From positions 1-20,835 of IMG/VR virus record IMGVR_UViG_3300045733_000143: a DNA stretch of 20,835 nucleotides; one strand, given 5' to 3'. Under the pieces are notes generated by a model, which saw nothing but the letters and a program-made list of their open reading frames with translations, had not been told where the DNA came from and did not search any database. Within the stretch, counting starts at the first letter, position 1; each line of letters starts with the position of its first letter. The translations under genes were made by a program, and so were the position numbers. This document shows, piece after piece, positions 6,210 to 18,197 of the stretch. This DNA comes from a virus.

Positions 6210-6649
6210 CGCTGCAACTCCTTCCTGATTCCCGCGATGATCGCGGCACGCACATCCGGTCCGGACTCCTCCATCGGCACCGAGAACCACCCCGGCCGGA
6301 CCGACTGCATGCCCGCGCTACGCCGCCGCCGCCACTTCCCGTAGATGGCGTGCCGGACCTGTCCCCGGTTGATGAGGGCGAGTTGCTGCCGGACCTGGCC
6401 GCCGACTGCCTCGACCCGGACGCCAGGCCTCGACCGGGATCGGTTCGGGGTGACGGTGATCCGGGACCCGGCGACCGCCGAAGCGAGGCCGCCCCGCCGG
6501 GGGAGGTCCGTGAGGGCCTTCCGGCGGGCCTTGACCACGGCGACCTCGACGGGCGGGGCGAGGACCTTGGTCAGGACGGCGGGGAGGTTGTCGGCGGCCC
6601 GTTCGAGACGGGCAGCGAGCCGCCGGAAGTCGTCCCCCCCGTTCGTCAT
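6206..6649 (-). CDS. HK97 gp10-like head-tail/tail completion protein (147 aa)
   Basis: The ATG at 6649 overlaps the tail tube stop (ATGA). The protein begins MTNGGDDFRRLAARLERAAD, an amphipathic helix. A Lys/Arg-rich stretch follows (VAVVKARRKALTDLPRRGG), then a beta-rich part with ITVTPNRSRSRPGVRV, and it ends IAGIRKELQR. About 145 basic residues with an N-terminal helix followed by a short beta domain is the pattern of the HK97 gp10 family and of small actinophage tail proteins. In the family these sit at the neck or assist tail completion. Here the gene follows the tail tube rather than preceding it, an order seen in some actinophages. The exact role is uncertain; a general minor tail protein is the alternative. 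Confidence 0.6.
   Translation of the reverse strand: MTNGGDDFRRLAARLERAADNLPAVLTKVLAPPVEVAVVKARRKALTDLPRRGGLASAVAGSRITVTPNRSRSRPGVRVEAVGGQVRQQLALINRGQVRHAIYGKWRRRRSAGMQSVRPGWFSVPMEESGPDVRAAIIAGIRKELQR
6218..6225 (-). promoter_or_regulatory. Ribosome binding site for the tail chaperone
   Basis: GGAAGGAG lies inside the last codons of the upstream gp10-like gene, eight bases before GTG 6209. It decides this start against longer in-frame alternatives. Confidence 0.65.
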
Positions 6650-7044
6650 CCGACCTTCGCGATAGCTGAGGCCGCGTTCCAGGACGCCTTGATCTCCACG
6701 GCTCCGGAGACGGCCCCAGACCCGGAGAAGTCGGGAAGAACGGTGCCCCACCAGTACTGTCCAGACGTGAGGGTATTGGGGTAGAGGTAGAACTTCCGCG
6801 CCACTCCGTCGACAGCTGCTGTGTAGGTCTGGACGGTCGCGTCGTCATAAAACCCCGCGAAATCACCGGAAGCGTCCGGAAGGCCGGCAACGTAAACCTT
6901 GTTGCCGTCCCCGAAGCAGGTCACGTCGACCTTGTCGGTGGAGAAGTTGATGCTCCATGAGGTGAGATCCGCGACGGGTTCCGCGGTTCCCCCGGAAGCG
7001 AGAGCGAGATACACCCTTCCGCCGCGGGCAGCGATACGAGCCAC
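6646..7044 (-). CDS. Major tail tube protein (132 aa)
   Basis: It starts at GTG 7044, preceded by GGGAGG with a seven-base spacer; the tract also overlaps the stop of the upstream glycosyltransferase gene. The sequence is compact and beta-rich. VYLALASGGTAEPVADLTSW and STDKVDVTCFGDGNKVYV match the tail tube pattern, in which a strand leads into a 'xxDVTxFGDxxK' segment with a following loop. DFAGFYDDAT and WWGTVLPDFSG give the second sheet. Position just before the gp10-like and chaperone genes fits. It polymerises into hexameric rings around the tape measure to form the tail tube. At 132 residues it is short for a major tail protein but within the range of the simple one-domain type. It lies directly downstream of a glycosyltransferase gene, so it is one candidate substrate. 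Confidence 0.82.
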   Translation of the reverse strand: MARIAARGGRVYLALASGGTAEPVADLTSWSINFSTDKVDVTCFGDGNKVYVAGLPDASGDFAGFYDDATVQTYTAAVDGVARKFYLYPNTLTSGQYWWGTVLPDFSGSGAVSGAVEIKASWNAASAIAKVG

Positions 7045-7056
7045 TGTGTTGCCTCC

Positions 7057-8115
7057 CTAAATGGTGACCGGAATCCGGTCGAGGATCCGCAGCAGGTGCC
7101 GCGCATGCTGGATGAAGGTCCTGTTCGACACCGCGGCCCGTGCAGCCTCCGCGGCGTATTCCCGTTCCGTCTGATGGGCAAGCCACCACCGGAGCAGTTC
7201 CGATGCCTCCTCCGGGCCGGAGAACGACGGCAACATCGGGAGAACCCGGTCGGACTCCATGCGGGGATCCCGGAGGAAGAACAATCCGCACGCGGCCATC
7301 TCAACCTCGCGGGGCCCCATCGCCACCCCCGCCGGAGTGTCCGCCTCGTCATGCTCACGGCGGTACAGGTTGATGCCGCAGCGAGCGGCCTGATAGACCC
7401 GGGCAGTCTCGGTGTTATCGCAGCAATGCTCCGGGTCGGGGTCGGCGAGGTGGGCGCGGAGCGGGGAATCCTCGGCGAGGCCCTGCCAGTTCCCGGCGAG
7501 GAGAACATCCCGTCCGGCGAGGTCCATGTGCTCGAAGAACCAGCGGCGAGACCCGAACCCGGTGCCGACGAATCCGAGGTCGCAGATCAGTTTCGGGTCG
7601 GGCCGTGCCGGGTGGTGGACGATGGGCCGGAACGCGTGGGGGGCGTAGGACGTATTGGCGACTTCCCGGAACCGGTCGAGGTTCAACGGGTCGTTGATCA
7701 TGTTGATGTCGGCGTGCTTGGCCAGCTGGATTTGCCGCGCGTCCTCGTAGGGACTCTCGGTGTGCATGATGATGACCCGGGTCCCGTACCAGCGGGCCTG
7801 GTCGAGCATCTGGGGTGGGATGAAGAACCCGGAGATGACGAGGAGGACGTCTGGGCGGAGTTTGAACAGCATGGCGGCGAGGCCGTTGATGGCAAGTTCG
7901 CCGGCCTGGTCGTTGGTGAGGGCTCGCCGTATCCGGAGTTCACCGTGCTCGCCCGGGTCACCGATGTCGATCATCGCGTGGGAGTAGAGCGCCAGGCGGT
8001 CGTCGAGGTTGAACTCCGTGACTTGCTCGCCGAGTGCGCGGAGGGCTTCGCACCACCCGACATGGACGTCCTGCACGGACCAGGAGGGGCCGGGTTGAGC
8101 GACGACCCACCGCAT
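7057..8115 (-). CDS. CgeB-like glycosyltransferase (352 aa)
   Basis: ATG 8115 overlaps the stop of the tail-terminator-like gene (TAATG). The layout is that of a GT-B enzyme. An N-terminal Rossmann-like half (residues 1-160) includes MRWVVAQPGPSW, RPDVLLVISGFF and TRVIIMHTESPYEDARQ. A C-terminal half has CDLGFVGTGFGSRRWFFE, VYQAARCGINLYRREHD and GPREVEMAACGLFFLRDPRM (about 267-286). The last segment is the donor-binding region of the CgeB/Glyco_trans_1_2 type, where a Glu-containing helix precedes a strand and an Asp/Arg turn. The protein is full length for the family. It would move a sugar from an activated donor to an unknown acceptor in the cytoplasm. It is embedded in the head-tail and tail genes, far from the other sugar genes, which suggests a virion or tail target. 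That link is inference. Confidence 0.85.
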   Translation of the reverse strand: MRWVVAQPGPSWSVQDVHVGWCEALRALGEQVTEFNLDDRLALYSHAMIDIGDPGEHGELRIRRALTNDQAGELAINGLAAMLFKLRPDVLLVISGFFIPPQMLDQARWYGTRVIIMHTESPYEDARQIQLAKHADINMINDPLNLDRFREVANTSYAPHAFRPIVHHPARPDPKLICDLGFVGTGFGSRRWFFEHMDLAGRDVLLAGNWQGLAEDSPLRAHLADPDPEHCCDNTETARVYQAARCGINLYRREHDEADTPAGVAMGPREVEMAACGLFFLRDPRMESDRVLPMLPSFSGPEEASELLRWWLAHQTEREYAAEAARAAVSNRTFIQHARHLLRILDRIPVTI

Positions 8116-9432: not shown

Positions 9433-11103
9433 TCAGTCGCTCACAGTTGACATGGACACGGCACGGGCGGTAACTGTCGCCGCGAATGGGGATCCCGAGA
9501 TGGATGGGGTGGACTGGGCGTTGCGTTCCCCGCCGGTAACCAAGCCGTCAAACGCTGCCGCCGTGGCGAGTGCCGCGTCTGCCGCCACGAGGACCGCTAT
9601 GGCCGCGTCGTACGCGGTCCCGGTGGCAGCCGCCGCTTCGGCCGCCGCTTCCCGCAGAAGGGTTACGGTCGCGTCGTATGCGGTTCCTGTGCTTCCGGCG
9701 TTCTCCGCCGCGGCGGTCCCGGAGATACCGGCGTCGTACGCGGTGCCTGTTCCGGCCGGGAGTCCGGCGTTCGCGGTGCCAGAGCTGGACGTCGAAACGG
9801 TCGCGTCGTACGCGGTCCCGGTTCCTGCCGCACCCTCCGCCGTCGCCGAGACGGACTGGGACGCGTCGTACGCTGTCCCGGTTCCAGCGGGGCATTCGGC
9901 GTTCACTGACGCCGCGGCAGATGTTGACACCGTGGCGTCGTACGCGGTCCCTGTTACTGCCGAGCTTCCCGCTGCTGCCGATACGGACGTCGACACCGTG
10001 GCGTCGTATGCGGTGCCCGATCCCGTTGGGCATTCGGCGTTCACTGACGTCGCCGCCGACGTCGTAACGGTCGCGTCGTACGCGGTCCCGGTTCCAGCGG
10101 GGCATTCGGCGTTCACTGACGCCGAGGACGACGTCGACACGGTCGCGTCGTACGCAGTTCCCGTAGCGGCGGCGGCCTCTGCTGGCTGTGCGACTGCCGC
10201 CCCGAGGTCTCCCGCTACGCCGGTCCCGGAAACGGCGGACGCCGTGGCCGAGACAGCCGTGGTGGCGTCCCCAGCCGCTCCGGTCCCAGCGGACGCAGTA
10301 GGCGGTGCAGCGACCGACGGCGCAGCGTCTCCAGCCGCGCCGGTCCCAATGGATACGTCCGACGACGCTGCGACCGACGGCGCAGCGTCGCCGGCGGACC
10401 CGGTTGCTGCCGAGTTCTCCGCCGCGGCGTTCGTCCCACCGGCGGCGGCCTGCTTGATCGCGACGAGCGCGAGGACAGGGTGCGTGGTGGAGTGTCCAGC
10501 CGCACCGACGGTCAGTGTCGTCGAGAGGGTCACCGTCGATGTGAGAGTCCTGACCCCGAACCAGGCCGTGTCCTGGTCCCGGGCGGTGAAGTGGATCGGG
10601 TTGGTGATGAGGTCGGTGACGCTGTTCGTCCAGGTCGGTGGGGTCGAGAACGACGCGTCGGTCCCGGACGAGGCGGCGAAGAAGAGTGCGTAGTCGTTGG
10701 CGTTCGTCGTCGATGACCCGGCGGTGAAAACGTTCGCCTCGGCCCCGCCCTGGGTGGCGTCGATCCAGTGGACATCGACCGGTGTCGTCGTGTCAGCATT
10801 GTCGATCTCGACGACGAGGATCCCGGCCCCCGCTGCTCCTGCGGCGGGGGTGATGGAGACATTGTCGCTGCTCGTTGCGGTCGCGACCCGCCAGTAGATT
10901 CCGGCTCCGACCCAGTTGACCCCGCCGTCTATCTTCGTCCAGTTCGTGATCGTGAAGTCGTTGTGACCCGCGTTGGCGCCGAACGAGTCGTCGGCCCACA
11001 CGAACGCGACGAGGACCCGCCCCGAGGTAGCGGTCACGGTCCGAGTGATAGGGGTCGCGGTGGTGGAGGTCAGGAGAGTTGTCGCTAGGACGGCGTAGGC
11101 CAT
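9433..11103 (-). CDS. Repeat-containing phage structural protein (556 aa)
   Basis: ATG 11103 is preceded by GGGGAGGGGAGGG. Residues 1-220 look like a beta-sandwich, with ITRTVTATSGRVLVAFVWAD, VNWVGAGIYWRVA and HPVLALVAIKQ, similar to carbohydrate-binding or jelly-roll folds. Residues about 229-527 consist of about 14 tandem units of 19-24 residues. Each has a core such as GTGTAYDATVS or GTGAAGDAAPS followed by an Ala/Ser/Thr-rich spacer, sometimes with Asn-Ala-Glu-Cys-Pro. A 29-residue tail follows. Similar GTGTAYDA repeats occur in actinophage structural proteins, but I know of no proven function. It may be a head fibre or decoration, or a virion-surface adhesin. Serine and threonine richness also makes it a possible glycosylation target. 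Gene certain; function unknown. Confidence 0.75.
   Translation of the reverse strand: MAYAVLATTLLTSTTATPITRTVTATSGRVLVAFVWADDSFGANAGHNDFTITNWTKIDGGVNWVGAGIYWRVATATSSDNVSITPAAGAAGAGILVVEIDNADTTTPVDVHWIDATQGGAEANVFTAGSSTTNANDYALFFAASSGTDASFSTPPTWTNSVTDLITNPIHFTARDQDTAWFGVRTLTSTVTLSTTLTVGAAGHSTTHPVLALVAIKQAAAGGTNAAAENSAATGSAGDAAPSVAASSDVSIGTGAAGDAAPSVAAPPTASAGTGAAGDATTAVSATASAVSGTGVAGDLGAAVAQPAEAAAATGTAYDATVSTSSSASVNAECPAGTGTAYDATVTTSAATSVNAECPTGSGTAYDATVSTSVSAAAGSSAVTGTAYDATVSTSAAASVNAECPAGTGTAYDASQSVSATAEGAAGTGTAYDATVSTSSSGTANAGLPAGTGTAYDAGISGTAAAENAGSTGTAYDATVTLLREAAAEAAAATGTAYDAAIAVLVAADAALATAAAFDGLVTGGERNAQSTPSISGSPFAATVTARAVSMSTVSD
9523..10419 (-). repeat. Tandem in-frame repeats (about 14 units, 19-24 codons each)
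   Basis: Units are anchored by codons for GTGTAYDA or the variant GTGAAGDA, visible on the plus strand as recurring cgtcgtacgcggt. Two 40-base segments, 9875-9914 and 10085-10124, are identical, and a third partial copy lies near 10028. Near-identical neighbouring units allow gain or loss by recombination without breaking the frame. The four units nearest the N-terminus (GTGAAGDA type) are more diverged from the others, suggesting two rounds of expansion. Confidence 0.9.
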
Positions 11104-11134: not shown

Positions 11135-11605
11135 TCAGAGGGTGAAGCGGAATACTCCGTTTGTGTTCCAGACGACCGTGAAGGTCCCGGATGTGACGGA
11201 GTTGGATCCACCGAAGTAGTTGAAGCAGGCTCCCTGGTCCGCGACCGGCGTGGTGAGGGTGTCGTCGTAGACGAGTGCTCCGTATACGGCTGCGAGGGTC
11301 GCGGTCGCCCCGGAGGCGGTATCTGCGGCGTCGAAGAACACGACAGCGCTGGTAGCGGAGTTCAGGGACTGCGAGGCCAGTGCGACGCCAGTGGCGGCCC
11401 ACTGGCCGGCGGAGCTGACCTCGTTCGCGGATGCCCACTGGCCCACGTTGTAGGCGGAGTTCGCGGACGTCACGTTCTGGTCGGGGGTCGGGGTTGTGCC
11501 GTACAGAGCCGCCTTGAAGGAGTCCGCGTCGAAGTCCATCGCGCACACGTTCCCGAGGACGTCGGCGAGCATCGGCCGAAAGATCTTACTGTTTGTCCAG
11601 GCCAT
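11135..11605 (-). CDS. Phage structural protein of unknown role (156 aa)
   Basis: ATG 11605 lies two bases after the stop of the Cys-containing gene, with AGGTGA just upstream. The protein begins MAWTNSKIFRPMLADVLGN. It continues with SFKAALYGTTPTPDQNVTSA and NVGQWASANEVSSAGQWAAT, then a beta-rich Ala/Thr/Ser region. It ends FTVVWNTNGVFRFTL. The N-terminal MAWTNxKIF and the 'FKAALYG..PTPD' stretch are features I associate with a common actinophage structural protein located between the capsid and connector genes. Its fold looks beta-rich, without membrane segments. It could be a head decoration or minor capsid component. Neighbour context supports a virion role; the specific role is not known. 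Confidence 0.65.
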   Translation of the reverse strand: MAWTNSKIFRPMLADVLGNVCAMDFDADSFKAALYGTTPTPDQNVTSANSAYNVGQWASANEVSSAGQWAATGVALASQSLNSATSAVVFFDAADTASGATATLAAVYGALVYDDTLTTPVADQGACFNYFGGSNSVTSGTFTVVWNTNGVFRFTL

Positions 11606-11607
11606 CC

Positions 11608-11919
11608 CTATTCACCTATCCCGGTTGCGCACGGCGCGAACACCGTGCAGTCCTGTCCCTCGTCTCGGGTCGTGACGACCGCCATAACTGGCCGGCCCTC
11701 GGCGTCGGTTTGGACGTCCTCACGTCCTACCCAGTCGCCGCGCTCAACTGCCTTCACGTGCGCCGCCGTGCCGGCCTCAACCATGGGTGCCAGTAGTAGA
11801 CGCAATCCCCGGCACGGATGGAACGGGGTGTGCGGGGCGGATTCCCTGGTGATGTGTACGTGGTCGCAGTTCGGGCACGTCCACCGTCTCTCCGGTGCGG
11901 CGAGGATCGGCGATGTCAT
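11608..11919 (-). CDS. Small Cys/His-containing phage protein (103 aa)
   Basis: ATG 11919 overlaps the beta-helix gene stop (ATGA). The longer frame upstream only shadows that gene. The protein begins MTSPILAAPERRWTCPNCDH. It has CPNC at residues 20-23, followed by several histidines and a further Cys in HTPFHPCRGLRLLLAP, giving a likely zinc site of CxxC plus His/Cys. The C-terminal half (DWVGREDVQTDAEGRPVMAV, then DCTVFAPCATG) is a beta-hairpin pattern common to small actinophage head-region proteins. No DNA-binding helix is evident. It may be a structural metal-binding component encoded with the head genes. The gene is well supported; the function is not established. Confidence 0.7.
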   Translation of the reverse strand: MTSPILAAPERRWTCPNCDHVHITRESAPHTPFHPCRGLRLLLAPMVEAGTAAHVKAVERGDWVGREDVQTDAEGRPVMAVVTTRDEGQDCTVFAPCATGIGE

Positions 11920-12968
11920 GTGATTGCCGCCCCTGTGTCGTCCCACACGTTCCCAGACATGGTGATCTCCGGGTCGTCCTGCGCGGCCATCGGCCCGTAG
12001 TACCCGCACGTTGACCAGTACGTCCGGCCGAAGTGGTTACCGATCAGCCGGATGTTGCTGATCGTCTTGCCCGTCGGGGGATTGGCTCCGGCGTACAGGG
12101 TGTATCCGCCGCCGTTTAGGAGGTTGTTCTCCACGGTGATCCCGGAGATGTTCCCCTGATCGGCACCCAGCATGATCGCCGACGTTTCGGACAGTGCGTT
12201 GTCGATCGTGTTGTGCCGGATCGTGATGTTACTGCCCGAGGTGACCTGGATACCGTCGTTGTGAGAGTCGCCTGTTGGGATCATGCCGTGTATCCAGGAG
12301 TCCTCGACGAGGACGTTCCCGTTCGCGAACGCACCATCCGACCCGCCGCTGATCTCGACGCGGCGCAGCGTGTAGTCGGACCAGCCGACCCCGACCGTCG
12401 CACCGGTCGTCGCGATGACTGTCGAATCCTCGATGGTCAGTGCGGTCGAATCGTTCTCGACCGCGGTCCAACAATCGCCCGTGATCCGCGAGTTCCGGAT
12501 CGTCACGTTCGGGGCGTTTACCGTGACGCATCCCCGGATGTCCATGCCGGTGATGACCTGCCCGGCTGTCGTCAAAGTCCATGACCCGGAGTGGATAGTG
12601 AGCGCTGTCCCGTCCGGTACTCCGGTAGACGCCGCGTCCGGGAATCCCGCTGGGGACACCGTCGGTGTGGTTGTCGCGGTGGTGGTCGGTGTCGTCGTGC
12701 TCGTGGTGACCGGCGTGGTGGTCGTCGTGGTGGTCGTGGTGGTGGTGGTGGTGGGGTGGGCCGCCTCTAAGGCGGCGACCCGCGACTGCAGGGTGTCGAG
12801 GCGAGACTCCAATGCAACGATCCGCTGCTGACGGCACGTGTCGGTGTTCGCCGTGCACGGCGGCGTGTATGCGGTCCTCCCGGGCGTGGGTACTGCCACC
12901 CAGATCAGTAATCCCACGGCGACCGCTGCGATGGCGAATAGGGGGACGATGCGCCACTTCCTGGTCAT
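11916..12968 (-). CDS. Membrane-anchored or exported coiled-coil/poly-Thr/beta-helix protein (350 aa)
   Basis: ATG 12968 overlaps the previous stop (ATGA) and has no good ribosome binding site, so it is probably translated by coupling. The order is: basic N-terminus MTRKWR; hydrophobic segment at residues about 8-26 (signal anchor or signal peptide); Cys38 and Cys45; coiled coil with leucine/valine heptads (about 50-70); Thr/Pro linker (73-106); and a right-handed parallel beta-helix (about 120-350). The helix shows repeated rungs such as ALTIHSGSWTL, VTIRNSRITG, LTIEDSTVIA, ITIRHNTIDN and ISNIRLIGNHF. Beta-helices of this type occur in polysaccharide lyases, tailspikes and surface adhesins. 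No complete lyase active site is evident by eye. An exported protein inside a head operon is unusual. It may be a surface protein made in the infected cell, or a virion spike whose hydrophobic N-terminus is buried. Confidence 0.75.
   Translation of the reverse strand: MTRKWRIVPLFAIAAVAVGLLIWVAVPTPGRTAYTPPCTANTDTCRQQRIVALESRLDTLQSRVAALEAAHPTTTTTTTTTTTTTPVTTSTTTPTTTATTTPTVSPAGFPDAASTGVPDGTALTIHSGSWTLTTAGQVITGMDIRGCVTVNAPNVTIRNSRITGDCWTAVENDSTALTIEDSTVIATTGATVGVGWSDYTLRRVEISGGSDGAFANGNVLVEDSWIHGMIPTGDSHNDGIQVTSGSNITIRHNTIDNALSETSAIMLGADQGNISGITVENNLLNGGGYTLYAGANPPTGKTISNIRLIGNHFGRTYWSTCGYYGPMAAQDDPEITMSGNVWDDTGAAIT
12651..12752 (-). repeat. ACC/ACG microsatellite encoding a poly-Thr linker
   Basis: The coding strand runs ACC and ACG codons almost without interruption, giving a 13-residue uninterrupted Thr run followed by a Thr/Pro/Ser/Ala mixture. 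On the plus strand it is a ggt/cgt triplet tract. Triplet slippage would change linker length without a frameshift. Thr/Pro-rich exported segments are typical substrates of actinobacterial O-mannosylation, a general property, not shown here. Confidence 0.9.
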
Positions 12969-13195
12969 GGCATTCGAGGTTTCCGCGTGGCCGGGCGACC
13001 GGGACGCGTCTCTACGTTCACTACCGGAGCCGGCCGCGTCTCGACCTCCGGCTCCTCCTCGACCGCCACGGCCAGGCCTGCGCGGACCAGGTGCGCCGCC
13101 TCGTCCGCGTCGCACTCCAGCACCCCGTCAGGAGGAGGCCACTCCGCGCCTGGACCACGGGTTCCGCTGATCCCGACGAGCATCCGAACCTTCAC
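12965..13195 (-). CDS. Small conserved phage head-region protein (76 aa)
   Basis: GTG 13195 overlaps the stop of the GT-B gene (GTGA) and has GAAGGAG seven bases upstream, so it is chosen over a longer frame starting at 13225. The protein begins VKVRMLVGISGTRGPGAEWP, followed by a DGVLECDADEAAHLVRAGLA segment and an acidic then Pro/Arg-rich tail. Short proteins with this 'KVRMxVxISGTR...W.P.....D.EAA.L..AG.A' pattern commonly follow the major capsid gene in actinophages. Here the four sugar genes separate it from the capsid gene. It may bind capsid or connector. The function has not been established to my knowledge. Confidence 0.75.
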   Translation of the reverse strand: MKVRMLVGISGTRGPGAEWPPPDGVLECDADEAAHLVRAGLAVAVEEEPEVETRPAPVVNVETRPGRPATRKPRMP

Positions 13196-14157
13196 CGCGA
13201 CACTCCTTCGTAGGCTGATTCCCACAGGCGCCAGCCGTCCTCGACGGTCCAGCGCGACGCGACCTCACGGGCCTTGATGCCCATCTCGGTCCGCATCGCC
13301 GAGTCGTTCACGAGATCCCGGATCCGCTGCTCCCACTCATGCGGGCGGCGAATCAGGAACCCGGACACGCCGTCGACCACGAGATCCCGATATGGCTCGC
13401 TGTCGGTCGCTACGACCGGGATCCCCAGCGCCGCGTACTCCAGCGCCTTGATGTGGCTTTTGCTGCGGTTGAACGTGCTGTATGTGAGCGGCGCTAGCCC
13501 GATGTCGAAGTCGATGGACCGGTAGTAGTCCCATGGATCGTCTGACCACTTCGTGAACCGGCACTGGCGCTTGACCGTCGGTGAGTAGTCCGTCCCGATC
13601 AGATGGACCTCGACGTGCGGGTCGCGGTCCAGGACCCGGCGCAGCGGCTGTGCCACCTCGGCGATGTCGAGGCCGTGGGATGCTCCGCCGGCCCAACCGA
13701 TGACCACCTTGTCTCGGCGTGGCCGTTCGATGTCGAGCAGGCCTGCTGGGATGTGGTTTGGCAGAACAACCGTGTTCGGGTTGTGAGCCCTCATCACCTC
13801 AGCAAGCGGTTCCGTCGTCACCGTCACCATGTCCGCGACCTGCGCGGCGTGGATCACCGTGTCCTGCGGAACCGGCTTGCTGTAGACCCGGTGAGCCATC
13901 CAGTTGACGGGCTCCACACTGAACACGTCGTCGTCGATCTCGTAGACGAGTCGGGACGTCGCCTTCAAGCGCCGCCAGATCGGAAGCGCGTCATGCTTGT
14001 CCATCCGCTGACCCACGATGATCGAATAGTCGCGGGCCGCCTCGGACCATCCCGGCCACGTCTGCACGTCATGCCCATGCCGGCCCAACTCGCCGAGCGG
14101 CAACGTGACCCGGTAGAACCCACACCCAGATGCGTCGTGCATCCCGAAGACCCGCAA
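13192..14157 (-). CDS. GT-B glycosyltransferase (family 4-like, 321 aa)
   Basis: The likely start is TTG 14157, one base after the GT2 stop. The conserved first strand RVFGMHDASGCGFYRVTLPL begins right there, although a longer frame to 14241 exists and ATG 14142 is an alternative. The N-terminal half covers residues 1-145, including VYEIDDDVFSVEPVNW and DMVTVTTEPLAEVM. The C-terminal donor domain starts VVIGWAGGASHGLDI (151-165). It contains FDIGLAPLTYSTFNRSKS and the nucleotide-sugar segment SHIKALEYAALGIPVVATDS (234-253). DGVSGFLIRRP follows. This is the signature of retaining GT4-type enzymes. It would transfer a sugar from an NDP/GDP donor onto an unknown acceptor in the cytoplasm. It is last in the sugar cassette and coupled to the following small head gene. 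Confidence 0.87.
   Translation of the reverse strand: MRVFGMHDASGCGFYRVTLPLGELGRHGHDVQTWPGWSEAARDYSIIVGQRMDKHDALPIWRRLKATSRLVYEIDDDVFSVEPVNWMAHRVYSKPVPQDTVIHAAQVADMVTVTTEPLAEVMRAHNPNTVVLPNHIPAGLLDIERPRRDKVVIGWAGGASHGLDIAEVAQPLRRVLDRDPHVEVHLIGTDYSPTVKRQCRFTKWSDDPWDYYRSIDFDIGLAPLTYSTFNRSKSHIKALEYAALGIPVVATDSEPYRDLVVDGVSGFLIRRPHEWEQRIRDLVNDSAMRTEMGIKAREVASRWTVEDGWRLWESAYEGVSR
13203..13209 (-). promoter_or_regulatory. Ribosome binding site deciding the small-protein start
   Basis: GAAGGAG with the seven-base spacer TGTCGCG precedes GTG 13195. Confidence 0.65.
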
Positions 14158-14158
14158 C

Positions 14159-14794
14159 TCAGGCCGCCCAACCGTCGTGATGGACCACGGTCGGCTCACC
14201 ATCGACGAACACCCCAGGAAGCCCCCGAGCACGCCACTCACGGACGAGCCGGAAGTCTCCGGCGTTCATGACGTGGAACCCGTCCTCAGGCCACGCCACC
14301 GGGTTCCACGTGGCCGTCCGGAGCGCCTCGGCCCGGCACATGATCCCGTCGGAGTCCATCTGGCCATGCGCGAACGACGGATCACCGATCACCTGCCACG
14401 GCTGCCCTCGGACCACGAACTGCACCCGCGACACCGACCACATCGCCTCGGCCGCCTCCATGGCCGCGACATGCCTCGCCACGTGTTCGGGTCGGACCTC
14501 GTCGTCATCGCCGAGGAACCCGACGAACTCGCCCAGCGCCAGCCGGGAACCGATCATCCACGGGAACGCGCCGCATGAGGCGTCGTTGGTGCCGTCGCGC
14601 CATGATTCGTTGAGTTCGACAAACAGGATCCCCGGCTCGCCGGCCAGCCTCTCCGCGAGGCCGCGGTTCCGGTCCGAGACGATGACGTGCTGGACGTCCG
14701 GCCAGTCCAGTGCCCGCACCGACGGGATGCACCGGTCGAGCAGCAGGCTCATCCTCGACGGGACGGTAGGGGTCACGATCGACGCGAGGCTCAT
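14159..14794 (-). CDS. Family 2 (GT-A) glycosyltransferase (211 aa)
   Basis: ATG 14794 overlaps the dehydratase-like stop (ATGA). The protein begins MSLASIVTPTVPSRMSLLLD, the first beta strand and helix of a GT2 Rossmann-like fold. The metal/nucleotide motif GDDDEV has Asp96-Asp98. An acceptor-side WPEDGFHVMN includes Glu170-Asp171, matching the 'ED' catalytic-base region of inverting GT2 enzymes. The C-terminus (PGVFVDGEPTVVHHDGWAA) carries the histidines often near the metal site. At 211 residues it is a minimal single-domain enzyme without a membrane helix, so it is more like protein- or small-acceptor-directed enzymes than processive synthases. It is probably one of two sequential transferases in the cassette. 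Donor and acceptor unknown. Confidence 0.85.
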   Translation of the reverse strand: MSLASIVTPTVPSRMSLLLDRCIPSVRALDWPDVQHVIVSDRNRGLAERLAGEPGILFVELNESWRDGTNDASCGAFPWMIGSRLALGEFVGFLGDDDEVRPEHVARHVAAMEAAEAMWSVSRVQFVVRGQPWQVIGDPSFAHGQMDSDGIMCRAEALRTATWNPVAWPEDGFHVMNAGDFRLVREWRARGLPGVFVDGEPTVVHHDGWAA

Positions 14795-15678
14795 GACGCC
14801 CCCAGCTCGGACTCGACCATCCACCGGGCGAGTCCCGAGAAGTCCGTGCGCGGCTGCCAGTCGATCCGCTTGTCCGGCTCGGCGGTGAGCATCGGGACGT
14901 CCGTCGGCTGCGACCTGGACGTGTCCAGCGTCACCCAGTCACGCCAGTCCAGGCCGACGACCGAGAATGCTTCCGCCACCCAGTCCTGCGACGAATGTGG
15001 GTCACCCGTCGACAGGGTGTACTCGCCCGGCTCGGCGTCCGCGACCAACTGCATCGCCTTGGTGAAGTCCGGTGCCCAGCCCCAGTCCTGGAAGCGGCCC
15101 AGCCACCCGAGCGACATCCCGCCCGACAGGGGATCCGTGAAGATCCTGGCCACCGCCGCCGTCACGGTCCTGGTGAAGAACTCGCGGCCTCGACGCGGCG
15201 AGTGGTGACCGCCCATGACTGCGACCGACACGCACATCCCCTGGGACCGGTAGTCCGCGGCAATCGCACTGGCAAAGCTTTTCGCCGCCCCGTACGGACC
15301 GTGCAGGGCAATCGAGCCGGCCTGCACCACCCGCGCTTCGGGGGCCACCGCCCCGACCGCCTCCATGAGGCGGAGGAACCCGAGGCCAGTCACCTCGCCG
15401 GCAAGGATCGGCTGCGACCACGACGCCGACGGAGCCGACAGCGCCGCCAGGTTGTATACGACGTCCGGCCGGGCCTGGTCGACCGCGCGATACAGGGAAC
15501 CGGAGTCGAGGAGGTCGCCCTCGACGAGGGTCGCCGACGGCACGAGCAGCGAGATCCTCCGGCGCCGAGCAACGTCCTGGCCGTGGACGAGACCAAACAC
15601 GTCGTGACCGGCGTCGACCAACTGCTCCGCGAGATAGGACCCGTCCTGCCCCGTGATCCCCGTGATGAGCGTCCTCAC
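14791..15678 (-). CDS. GDP-mannose 4,6-dehydratase-like SDR enzyme, atypical active site (295 aa)
   Basis: GTG 15678 overlaps the methyltransferase stop (GTGA). The Rossmann motif GITGQDGSYLAEQLVDAGHD (residues 7-26) is almost diagnostic of the GDP-mannose 4,6-dehydratase family. Support also comes from NLAALSAPSASW (76-87), YGAAK with Tyr129/Lys133, HHSPRRGREFFTRTVTAA, and a C-terminus PTDVPMLTAEPDKRIDWQPR similar to the family end. The segment before the YxxxK is QAGSIALHG. Bacterial GMDs have QASTSELYG followed by a loop of about 17 residues, so the catalytic-type Glu appears replaced by Ala and the loop is missing. The protein is shorter than the usual 340-375 residues. It may be a reductase or epimerase acting on a 4-keto sugar rather than a dehydratase. 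Family certain; reaction open. Confidence 0.85.
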   Translation of the reverse strand: MRTLITGITGQDGSYLAEQLVDAGHDVFGLVHGQDVARRRRISLLVPSATLVEGDLLDSGSLYRAVDQARPDVVYNLAALSAPSASWSQPILAGEVTGLGFLRLMEAVGAVAPEARVVQAGSIALHGPYGAAKSFASAIAADYRSQGMCVSVAVMGGHHSPRRGREFFTRTVTAAVARIFTDPLSGGMSLGWLGRFQDWGWAPDFTKAMQLVADAEPGEYTLSTGDPHSSQDWVAEAFSVVGLDWRDWVTLDTSRSQPTDVPMLTAEPDKRIDWQPRTDFSGLARWMVESELGAS

Positions 15679-16868
15679 AGCAGCACCGGCACAGGGATGG
15701 GGACGATGAACCGTCCTCCGCTGTCGAGCCATTCCCGTTCGCGGCGGATCACCGGACCCAGGTAGTTGTGGATCAACATGAGCGCGGTAGCGCCTTCGGG
15801 TAGCGGTGCGTCCGTGATCGGGATGTGCGTCCCTGGCGTGAACTTCCCGACCTTCGTCGGCGTCAGGTCATGTACGGCGGCGACCTTCTTGGGGCCGAGG
15901 CCGCACCAATTCAAGATCGTGCAGGACTTCGCGCTGGCCCCGTAGCCGACGACGATCCGGCCGTCATCCAGCTCCGCGTCAACCAGGCCGCAGATCCGTT
16001 CCCGGAGCATGTCGGCGCGGCCCTGGACCTCCGAGTAAGTGCCGGAATGGCACAGCCACTCCTCGCGGGGCGGGACCTGCGGACAGTACCGGGTGCGTCT
16101 CGCTGTGACCCTGATGCTCCCGCCCTGAGCCGGAGTCCTGGACCAGCCCGTCAGTTCGAGCCCGTTCGCGGTCATCGTCTCGGCCAACGTCGAGACCGAG
16201 AAGAACGTCCTGTGCTCGTGGTAGACGTGGTCGAACCCGTTGCCCAGCAACAGATCCGCCAGATACTGCACCTCGATGACAGCGATGCCGTCGCCCACGA
16301 GCAGGTACCGGATCCCGGCGAAGAAGTCGCCCAAGTCAGCGACGTGCGCCGCCACGTTGTTCGCGATGACCAGGCCCGCCGGCCCGTGGCCCTCTCGGAT
16401 CCTCTCCGCCACGGCCAGCCCGAACGGCTCACCGACGACGTCCAGGCCGCGTCCACGAGCCACATCCGCCGGGCCGGACGAGGGCTCTACACCCAGGGTC
16501 CGACAGCCAGCAGTGTGGAGTTCGCCGAGGAGCGTCCCATCATTGCAGGCCACCTCGACGACCAGGCCATCCGTGGCCTGCTTATTTGCCGGCGCCAACA
16601 GCCAGTCCGCGTACTCCTGGAAGTACGCCACCGCGGCCGGCGACGACCCGGTGTAGAAGCCGTAGTCGGCGCCCCACAGCTGATCGTCCGGGACCACCTC
16701 GGTGAGCTGGACCAGCCAGCAGTCCTCGCACACCTGCAGGCCCAGCGGCCACCACGCCTCAGGATCATCCAGAGACGCAGGGAACCGATCAGCCAACGGC
16801 GACGTACCCAGATCCAGGAACTCCGTGACCCTCGCCGAACCGCAACCGCCACACACACTTCTCCGCAT
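15675..16868 (-). CDS. SAM-dependent sugar C-methyltransferase (TylC3/NovU-like, 397 aa)
   Basis: ATG 16868 follows GGAGG with a five-base spacer and is preferred over GTG 16874. The three-domain plan of sugar C-methyltransferases is clear. The N-terminal zinc site has Cys6/Cys9 (SVCGGCGS) and Cys47/Cys50 (LQVCEDCWLVQ), with LGTSPLADRF between them. The SAM motif is VVEVACNDGTLL (103-114), followed by VIANNVAAHVADL. Catalytic YHEHRTFFSV is at 216-225 and GGSIRVTA at 249-256. The C-terminal domain contains GYGASAKSCTILNWCG. The length matches the family. These enzymes methylate C-3 of TDP-4-keto-deoxysugars, usually after a 2,3-dehydratase/4,6-dehydratase step. No dTDP-glucose 4,6-dehydratase is in view, so the substrate may come from the host. 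First gene of the cassette, 78 bases after the capsid gene. Confidence 0.92.
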   Translation of the reverse strand: MRRSVCGGCGSARVTEFLDLGTSPLADRFPASLDDPEAWWPLGLQVCEDCWLVQLTEVVPDDQLWGADYGFYTGSSPAAVAYFQEYADWLLAPANKQATDGLVVEVACNDGTLLGELHTAGCRTLGVEPSSGPADVARGRGLDVVGEPFGLAVAERIREGHGPAGLVIANNVAAHVADLGDFFAGIRYLLVGDGIAVIEVQYLADLLLGNGFDHVYHEHRTFFSVSTLAETMTANGLELTGWSRTPAQGGSIRVTARRTRYCPQVPPREEWLCHSGTYSEVQGRADMLRERICGLVDAELDDGRIVVGYGASAKSCTILNWCGLGPKKVAAVHDLTPTKVGKFTPGTHIPITDAPLPEGATALMLIHNYLGPVIRREREWLDSGGRFIVPIPVPVLL

Positions 16869-16895: not shown

Positions 16896-16931
16896 CCCGG
16901 AGGACCGGCCATGCGGGACCGGCCCTCCGGG
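16896..16931 (-). terminator. Strong hairpin after the capsid gene, likely partial terminator
   Basis: The RNA of the minus strand can form a 15-bp stem (two G-U pairs, otherwise Watson-Crick) with a six-base loop, CCGCAT, starting CCCGGAGGGCCGG. It lies 15 bases after the capsid stop and about 28 bases before the methyltransferase start. No uridine tract follows, so it is not a classical factor-independent terminator. Stable stems without U tracts can still attenuate transcription or stabilise upstream mRNA in actinobacteria. Confidence 0.65.
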
Positions 16932-16946
16932 GGTAGAAGGAACAGA

Positions 16947-18197
16947 TCAGGTAGCCGTCGCCTGCAACGTCTTGATCGCACCCGTCAGGTCCACCAGGGC
17001 ACCGTCACCGCGGAGAATCCCCCGGAACGCAACCATGTCCGACCCGAACAGGAAGTCGTCGGACCGCTCGAAACGGATACCGCCGACCATCCGGACGAAG
17101 AACTGCGAGAAGTCACCGAACGCGATGGCCTTCGCCCCGGTCGCTACCGCCGGCATGAACGGATCGCTCACGAGCGGTTTCCCGAGCAGAATGTCCGGCG
17201 CACCGATCTGGATCGACGGCTGCCAGATCGGCTGACCCGTTGTGTCCGTGATCTTCCGCAGTGCACCGACAGTCGCGTCCCGCATGATCCAGTAGCAGGA
17301 CCGGGACTGCCGATACGGAGCGATCACCGAGTACTGCAGGTCCACGAGATCCCCATACACAGGGACACCCGACTTGCCGGTCGTCGTACCGGTCACGCCC
17401 ACAGTCGCCGAGGTCATGAACCCCGTGGGCTGCGACGTCCCCGTACCGGTGACCAGGTCGGCGCCGAACTTGTTGCCCAGCGCCCGGCCGACCTGCATCG
17501 CGAGGTAGCCCTCAAGGTCGACACCCTCGTCGTCGATCAGCTCGCGGCTGACCTGCAGGAGGATGCCGTACTTGTAGGCGCCCAGAGTCGCGAGCCCGAA
17601 CGCCGGATCGCTCGACGGAAGCGTCGTGGCCTGCGCCGCGGAAGTCGCCGTCGAATGGGACGTGGTCTTCGGGATCTGCAGATTCTCCCCGCCGGTCGTG
17701 TTCAGGACCGTCGGGTTGGTCTGCATGACCCCGGACACCTCGATGAGGTGCGCGACGAGCCGGTTGTAGAACGACGTCGGCAGCAGGTTCCCGCCAGCTC
17801 CGGTCGCCGAGGTGGACAGCGCCCGGAGATCCAGCCGGGATTGCGGCTTCACCTCGAACGCGCGGGGGGCACCCTGCTCGCCGCGGAGGAACGACCGGAG
17901 CTGCGCCTCCATCGACGTGCCGTCGTCGGCGCTCTTGCCGGAACCGGATCCACGATCCACGGGACGACCCTGGATCCGGTTGAACGCGTCGTCGGCGTCC
18001 TTCGACCTCTGCTCCGTCTCCAGAGCCGACTTGATGCGCTTGTCGAGCTGGTCCAGTTCACCGTTCAGGGCGTCCCACGTGCCCTGCTCCTCGGCGCTGA
18101 ACGCCCTGTTCTGGTCAGCAGCAGCGGCGGCGACGGCCTTGGCCTGTTCCCAGACGTTGAGCCTGCGGTCGCGCAACTGCTTCGTGATCTCGGACAT
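16947..18197 (-). CDS. HK97-type major capsid protein with delta domain (416 aa)
   Basis: ATG 18197 follows an AGGAG in a hairpin loop. Residues 1-105 are an acidic/helical, Ala/Glu/Lys-rich coiled coil (for example LDQLDKRIKSALETEQRSKD), as expected for the delta domain that replaces a separate scaffold and is removed by the adjacent protease. From about residue 125 the HK97 core begins (STSATGAGGNLLPTSFYNRL). It includes GENLQIPKTTSHSTA, QVSRELIDDEGVDLEGYLAM, CYWIMRDATVGALRKITD and FGDFSQFFVRMVGGIRFERS, all characteristic of the fold. Hundreds of copies form the icosahedral shell. No unpaired cross-linking signature is evident to me. Being next to the sugar cassette, it is the most abundant possible target of virion glycosylation. 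Confidence 0.95.
   Translation of the reverse strand: MSEITKQLRDRRLNVWEQAKAVAAAAADQNRAFSAEEQGTWDALNGELDQLDKRIKSALETEQRSKDADDAFNRIQGRPVDRGSGSGKSADDGTSMEAQLRSFLRGEQGAPRAFEVKPQSRLDLRALSTSATGAGGNLLPTSFYNRLVAHLIEVSGVMQTNPTVLNTTGGENLQIPKTTSHSTATSAAQATTLPSSDPAFGLATLGAYKYGILLQVSRELIDDEGVDLEGYLAMQVGRALGNKFGADLVTGTGTSQPTGFMTSATVGVTGTTTGKSGVPVYGDLVDLQYSVIAPYRQSRSCYWIMRDATVGALRKITDTTGQPIWQPSIQIGAPDILLGKPLVSDPFMPAVATGAKAIAFGDFSQFFVRMVGGIRFERSDDFLFGSDMVAFRGILRGDGALVDLTGAIKTLQATAT

Follow-up and report, generated by a model that had tools for sequence, protein, structure and literature searches.

A putative virion-glycosylation cassette behind the major capsid gene of an uncultivated soil actinobacterial phage

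Gene content and organisation of the locus

The 20,835-base fragment of virus record IMGVR_UViG_3300045733_000143 (hereafter the window) represents an incomplete genome of an uncultivated soil actinobacterial phage. Directly behind the gene of the major capsid protein (MCP) it carries a cassette of four genes predicted to encode a nucleoside diphosphate (NDP)-sugar C-methyltransferase (CMT), a GMD-family short-chain dehydrogenase/reductase (SDR) and two glycosyltransferases (GTs) of the GT-A and the GT-B type. All genes discussed here are located on the minus strand in the order terminase (partial), portal, protease, MCP, CMT, SDR, GT-A (GT2), GT-B (GT4-like) and a small protein, followed by a beta-helix protein, two small genes, an alanine-rich repeat protein, the head-tail adaptor, the tail terminator, a fifth glycosyltransferase (GT5), the major tail protein and the tape measure. 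The cassette and its flanking features are:

16947..18197, minus strand: MCP of the HK97 type, 416 amino acids, C-terminus ...KTLQATAT (TIGR01554, 282 bits; phrog_10; relatives at 57-75% in viral loci)
16896..16931, minus strand: strong stem-loop of 15 stacked pairs between the MCP stop and the cassette (folding z -2.6)
15675..16868, minus strand: CMT, 397 amino acids (Methyltransf_13/23/14 domains; motifs intact)
14791..15678, minus strand: GMD-family SDR, 295 amino acids, GTG start at 15678, predicted 4-ketoreductase/epimerase (GDP_Man_Dehyd, 190.8 bits)
14159..14794, minus strand: GT-A (GT2) glycosyltransferase, 211 amino acids (Glycos_transf_2; GDDDE and HHDGW)
13192..14157, minus strand: GT-B (GT4-like) glycosyltransferase, 321 amino acids, TTG start at 14157, the constant gene of the site (Glyco_trans_1_4; phrog_7162)
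12965..13195, minus strand: small head-region protein (phrog_2616, to which phrog assigns no function), directly 3' of the MCP gene in relatives free of the cassette

The four cassette frames are open at the coordinates given in the initial annotation, their domain assignments are unambiguous, and the GTGA, ATGA and one-base junctions described there could be read directly in the sequence. The CMT and SDR genes overlap by GTGA (SDR start at 15678) and the SDR and GT-A genes by ATGA (14794), while one base separates the GT-A stop from the TTG start of the GT-B gene (14157); the SDR and GT-B starts agree with those in relatives. The GT-B gene furthermore overlaps the small gene by GTGA (start at 13195), a point absent from the initial annotation, so that the chain of coupling extends into a head gene. 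A search of the cassette region for a sigma-70-like promoter found none. The 78 bases between the MCP and CMT genes contain the stem-loop listed above. Stem-loops at this position are strong in most of 75 relatives, with and without cassettes (mean z -3.2 against simple shuffles), and may control how much MCP is made relative to the downstream products.

The insertion site and its exchangeable cargo

The site was surveyed in MCP relatives of 52-75% identity from IMG/VR and actinobacterial genomes, with mechanical calls of open reading frames (ORFs) in the relative loci (designated by L numbers). Since the counts of filled and empty sites require a small gene recognisable by similarity, loci with a diverged small gene fall in neither class; in many of these, too, genes for methyltransferases, NTP transferases or GTs follow the MCP gene. 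In 20 related phages or prophages 42-574 bases separate the small gene from the MCP gene, which bears out the earlier claim that the cassette separates the MCP gene from the small gene normally following it. The comparison with related phages lacking the insert, proposed as a check in the initial annotation, set these 20 empty sites against 14 distinct loci in which 3.8-7.7 kb lie between the two genes at the same place. Sugar genes are present in all 14 filled sites, and the last gene is in every case a GT-B homologue (48-68% identity), located directly before the small gene in 13 of them and separated from it by one short ORF in L064.

The remaining cargo differs between loci. A CMT, a GMD-like SDR and a GT2 are found in the window, L013, L014, L023, L082 and L022, and in L020 the same set occurs without the SDR. 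The GT2 is combined with an O-methyltransferase and an FAD oxidoreductase in L108, L031 and L035, and with an O-methyltransferase and an SDR in L067, L083, L095, L096 and L064. L043 holds a second C-methyl-sugar set consisting of a second SDR, a CMT (about 31%), a cupin, a nucleotide-sugar dehydrogenase and a GT2; parts of it occur in L036 (including the dehydrogenase), L055 and L061. The FAD oxidoreductase of the O-methyltransferase cassettes had no match in PDB and showed a weakly D-amino-acid dehydrogenase-like N-terminus.

On the MCP tree (37 rows) the filled or empty state requires 2 changes and the cargo type at least 4. Site occupancy therefore sorts largely by lineage: the presence of a cassette is typical of the window's own lineage, and the cargo is what changes. 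The proposed insertion after the MCP gene accordingly holds at the lineage level. The nearest MCP relatives of the window (L031, L035, L108) carry the O-methyltransferase and FAD cargo, and its CMT is closest to those of L246 and L002 (58-60%), phages with a different capsid gene, so that the cargo appears to have been exchanged between phage backgrounds. L078 was considered as an empty site inside the filled clade and was rejected, having a small-like ORF directly after the MCP gene yet a GT2-like ORF 3 kb beyond. A nucleotide search of the cassette against cultured phages gave no match.

Two further genes were noted behind the MCP genes of relatives. L045 encodes, in its post-MCP region (11541-13541), a 667-residue protein containing a domain of the animal haem peroxidase type (PF03098), and L037 a 499-residue fusion of an NTP-transferase and a phosphotransferase (APH) at 13205-14701, which is perhaps a sugar-nucleotide activating enzyme.

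The C-methyltransferase

In comparison with PDB entries the CMT matched the sugar 3-C-methyltransferases KijD1, TcaB9 and TylC3 over its full length (E 7e-73). The domains PF08421, PF13489 and PF08484 all scored above their cut-offs, and thus the zinc, S-adenosylmethionine (SAM) and C-terminal Methyltransf_14 parts are present. The zinc cysteines 6/9/47/50 and the SAM motif EVACNDG are kept, and Y216-H-E218-H219, invariant in 24 phage CMTs, aligns with the YDEH motif in the structure of the sugar 3-C-methyltransferase 5t64. The protein keeps 95% of the invariant positions, comparable to its kin. Based on the domain set, the zinc cysteines and the catalytic Y-x-E-H, the earlier assignment to the TylC3/NovU-type C-methyl-sugar enzymes appears correct, and the predicted activity is the C3 methylation of an NDP-4-ketosugar.

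An alignment scan for the CMT yielded at least 148 viral loci. On a tree of 84 phage and 35 actinobacterial CMTs the two labels require 2 changes, compared with about 30 after shuffling. Phage CMTs share 40-60% identity with the window protein and actinobacterial host CMTs 26-40%. One apparent host CMT at 44% is encoded on a short contig with the gene order CMT-SDR-head-tail-adaptor, and the contig is for this reason regarded as phage. Of the 67 loci that extend far enough for the comparison, 33 have an MCP-like gene at most 4.5 kb upstream of the CMT gene and none has one downstream of it; several phages with a different capsid gene show the order MCP, large GT2, CMT, SDR, GT2, head-tail adaptor. 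Since the same site holds varied cargo, the phage CMTs are numerous and nearly separate and the CMT gene lies downstream of the MCP gene, the cassette appears to be a phage-borne, cargo-variable and capsid-linked module, not a recent remnant of a natural-product cluster.

The altered GMD-family SDR

The SDR retains the GxxGxxG motif for NAD(P) (GITGQDG), the Y-x3-K pair (PYGAAK) and an extended-SDR fold. In a Foldseek search with its structural model (pLDDT 88) the predicted fold had GMD entries on all ranks from 1 to 31 (TM about 0.87). However, the catalytic TSE is changed to SIA, replacing the glutamate by alanine, a 17-residue catalytic loop is deleted and NHESPRR reads GHHSPRR. The protein scores 163.5 bits against the TIGR01472 cut-off of 415 and lacks the GMD catalytic motif and loop. 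The initial designation as a GMD-like SDR consequently applies to fold and family but not to function, since the residues of the dehydratase are gone. By established SDR chemistry, absence of the glutamate should abolish 4,6-dehydration and leave hydride transfer possible, which suggests that the SDR acts after methylation as a 4-ketoreductase (or epimerase-reductase) on a host-made 4-keto sugar.

The altered site recurs among 54 distinct CMT-linked SDRs, all of which keep the Y/K pair. In 29 of them [ST]SE and the loop are present, 19 show SSSA with a loop of 4 residues (among them L277, L309 and L213), 4 carry the SIA signature (the window, L283, L263 and L314) and 2 have aspartate in place of the glutamate; for the three main classes different activities are predicted. 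Glu-less short-loop SDRs thereby accompany a CMT in 23 phage loci. The SIA signature (SIA.HG-PYGAAK, GHHSPRR) is conserved across proteins of 40-62% identity, and since it is shared and a parallel SSSA class exists, the change is likely under selection. A mere private decay of the window's SDR was largely dropped as an explanation because L283, L263 and L314 have the same conserved signature. The window protein nevertheless keeps only 73% of the positions that do not vary among the other 21 phage SDRs, whereas each of the others keeps at least 84%.

In a sample of 60 actinobacterial genomes RmlB exceeded the curated cut-off in 46 and GMD in 24, indicating that hosts can supply the 4-keto precursor.

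The glycosyltransferases

The GT-A protein (PF00535, 29.3 bits against a cut-off of 23.3) has a GDDDE motif of the DxD metal type, which is conserved among its relatives, and keeps HHDGW. The GT-B protein matches phrog_7162 with 201 bits and PF13692/PF00534 above their cut-offs and contains the motif KALEYAALGIPVVA with the conserved glutamate of the C-terminal donor domain. Its best cultured relatives are encoded by the Streptomyces phages Zuko and KimJongPhill (35-36% identity). The profile matches of the GT-B protein comprise bacterial GT4 enzymes, among them the teichoic-acid enzyme TarM and enzymes of the MshA/BshA type. GT5, overlooked in the initial annotation, lies directly upstream of the major tail gene:

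7057..8115, minus strand: GT5, GT-B type (PF13524)
6646..7044, minus strand: major tail (tube) protein (phrog_10528/1407/9522/4574, each annotated as 'major tail protein')

At least 183 viral relatives of GT5 exist, and in 76 of the 78 loci that could be tested the GT gene immediately precedes that of the major tail protein. Its position beside the tail gene forms a striking parallel to that of the GT genes beside the capsid gene. For GT-A and GT5 no tblastn match was obtained in cultured phage records. Pattern scans with P0003 alone or P0002 alone gave no relative, while other searches did find relatives.

Proposed role in virion glycosylation

We consider it slightly more probable than the opposite that the cassette serves an actinobacteriophage as a virion-glycosylation module expressed late. 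The cassette would be transcribed late, together with the head genes. A host-made nucleotide-activated 4-keto-6-deoxyhexose, provided by host RmlB or GMD, would be methylated at C3 by the CMT, and the altered SDR would reduce (or epimerise and reduce) the 4-keto group to give an NDP-3-C-methyl-6-deoxyhexose. GT2 and GT-B would then transfer one or more sugars, the C-methyl sugar included, to a virion protein made nearby, most likely the MCP, and GT5 probably does likewise for the tail tube. The substrate, order of steps, product and acceptor protein in this route are predicted from gene content and context. The features that support the module are the intact motifs of CMT, GT2 and GT-B, the coupling to the head operon and the repeated occurrence at one site with differing sugar genes. 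The initial proposal that the phage makes or tailors a branched deoxysugar is partly supported: the C-methyl-sugar-type enzyme, the two GTs and the link to the head operon in many phages speak for it, but the SDR is not GMD-like in function.

Several observations weigh against this route. A gene supplying the 4-keto precursor was not seen in the 20.8-kb fragment, and 34 of the 67 testable CMT loci had no MCP gene within 4.5 kb upstream at the sensitivity used. Other donors or acceptors are conceivable for the GTs, and the likeness of the GT-B to TarM would be compatible with a cell-wall target. A C-terminal threonine of the MCP occurs in 16 of 17 filled versus 9 of 20 empty sites (p = 0.0017, uncorrected), an association inseparable from ancestry, with 2 independent contrasts on the tree; the threonine as acceptor was therefore kept as a lead only.

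The main rival is a host-wall target, in which the cassette would serve superinfection exclusion or lysogenic conversion by altering teichoic acid or a wall polysaccharide, its place in the head operon being due to chance. Prophage-encoded cytosolic GTs such as TarP of Staphylococcus aureus modify wall teichoic acid, and since the GT-B resembles TarM, a cytosolic cell-wall target would be compatible with the lack of membrane helices. On the other hand, the cassette contains no flippase, lipid-carrier GT or membrane protein (highest KD19 of the four genes 1.52), is translationally coupled to a head gene and recurs behind the MCP gene in phages with different capsids, and late-operon genes would stay silent in a lysogen. 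We therefore regard a wall target as unlikely. A similarly low, slightly smaller probability is given to the glycosylation of a virion protein with a donor that is not C-methylated, the SDR having decayed, the CMT having lost its substrate and the GTs using host sugars. The low retention of invariant positions in the SDR and its absence from L020 and several other CMT loci would fit such a decay, which is difficult to reconcile with the well-preserved CMT, the SDR signature shared between distant proteins, the parallel SSSA class, and an open SDR frame with a confident model.

Two other explanations appear improbable. A hypermodification of phage DNA bases with sugar has a precedent in the DNA-glycosylating phage GTs cited in PMC12619734, but no base-hydroxylating or pyrimidine-modifying gene was recognised in the 20.8 kb of this incomplete genome, and the head-operon position and the variety of cargo are unlike DNA-modification clusters; we consider it quite improbable. 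Hardly any weight is given to a recent capture from a natural-product cluster of a host (for an antibiotic deoxysugar), an alternative of the initial annotation. Members of the CMT family typically belong to macrolide and antibiotic sugar clusters, whereas the phage CMTs form nearly one group distant from those of the hosts, and the cassette genes are intact and widespread. Taken together, virion glycosylation is a better match for an exchangeable cargo locked to the head operon than a wall modification or a natural-product remnant would be.

Comparison with known systems

A broadly similar glycosylation of virions is established in mycobacteriophages: the MCP of Che8 and Rita carries glycans (PMC11256854), and in Mycobacterium phages the capsid and tail tube have glycans at their C-termini (PMC12619734). 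As in Che8 and Rita (Freeman et al. 2023, via PMC11256854 and PMC12619734), where the phages' own GTs act and glycans occur on capsid and tail tube, GT genes of the window's phage are linked to the genes of both proteins. Neither a C-methyltransferase nor a tailoring SDR is reported for Che8 and Rita in the accessible text. In Maravista the GT genes are described as lying towards the 3' genome end, whereas here they are located directly behind the MCP gene with swappable sugar-synthesis cargo. In Zuko and KimJongPhill the gene of the GT-B relative follows one for a UDP-glucose dehydrogenase (in KimJongPhill also a methyltransferase gene), and the block immediately precedes the terminase and head genes. 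It is without a CMT and is placed ahead of the terminase gene, not behind the MCP gene.

With TylC3, TcaB9 and KijD1 from antibiotic clusters the phage CMTs share full-length homology, the zinc domain, the catalytic Y-x-E-H and the C-terminal domain, but they differ in their place on the tree, the capsid-operon context and the GMD-family SDR partner. The proposed virenose pathway, in which GMD or RmlB is followed by TylC3-like C3 methylation and 4-ketoreduction (PMC3539893), has the same logic of converting a 4-keto-6-deoxyhexose. Virenose, however, is a sugar of bacterial lipopolysaccharide; the phage cassette has no dehydratase of its own, and its GT genes are coupled to those of the head. 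From Gtr serotype-conversion clusters the cassette differs by the absence of GtrA flippase and GtrB lipid-carrier GT domains and of membrane helices.

Glycosylation of phage virions was discovered recently and has few examples so far; phage-made branched sugars were not found in the accessible literature. While glycosylation of virions by phage GTs is already known from Che8, the predicted C-methyl sugar, the variable cassette and the altered SDR would be new. The locus shows a class of uncultivated soil actinophages that link sugar synthesis to the capsid gene. The different sugar kits at the same spot point to swappable sugar coats, and the change of sugar type between close relatives suggests selection on the surface chemistry of the particle, for which protists, antibodies, particle stability and host binding are candidate pressures. 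As a wider and more tentative reading, to which we give somewhat less than even weight, the locus may represent an actinobacteriophage 'glycan island' with a fixed post-MCP site, a constant GT-B and an exchangeable cargo through which the sugar on the phage surface varies; C-methyl-branched deoxysugars made by the phage would be among the variants. The GMD-family SDRs that have a short loop, lack the catalytic glutamate and accompany a CMT would then form a new enzyme class, the predicted C-methyl-ketosugar reductases, which would have evolved from dehydratases.

Further observations in the window

Two loci, L029 and L132, represent the same virus from other metagenomes (100% identical proteins); neither contig spans the cassette. 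Directly behind the small gene, positions 11916-12968 encode a protein with an N-terminal membrane anchor, a coiled-coil-like stretch, a long poly-threonine linker and a right-handed beta-helix. Among the other loci it has no relative except in the same virus (L132). Its poly-threonine linker would be a good target of O-glycosylation. Further along the head region, positions 9433-11103 encode a 556-residue protein that consists mostly of GTAYDATVSTS-like repeats.

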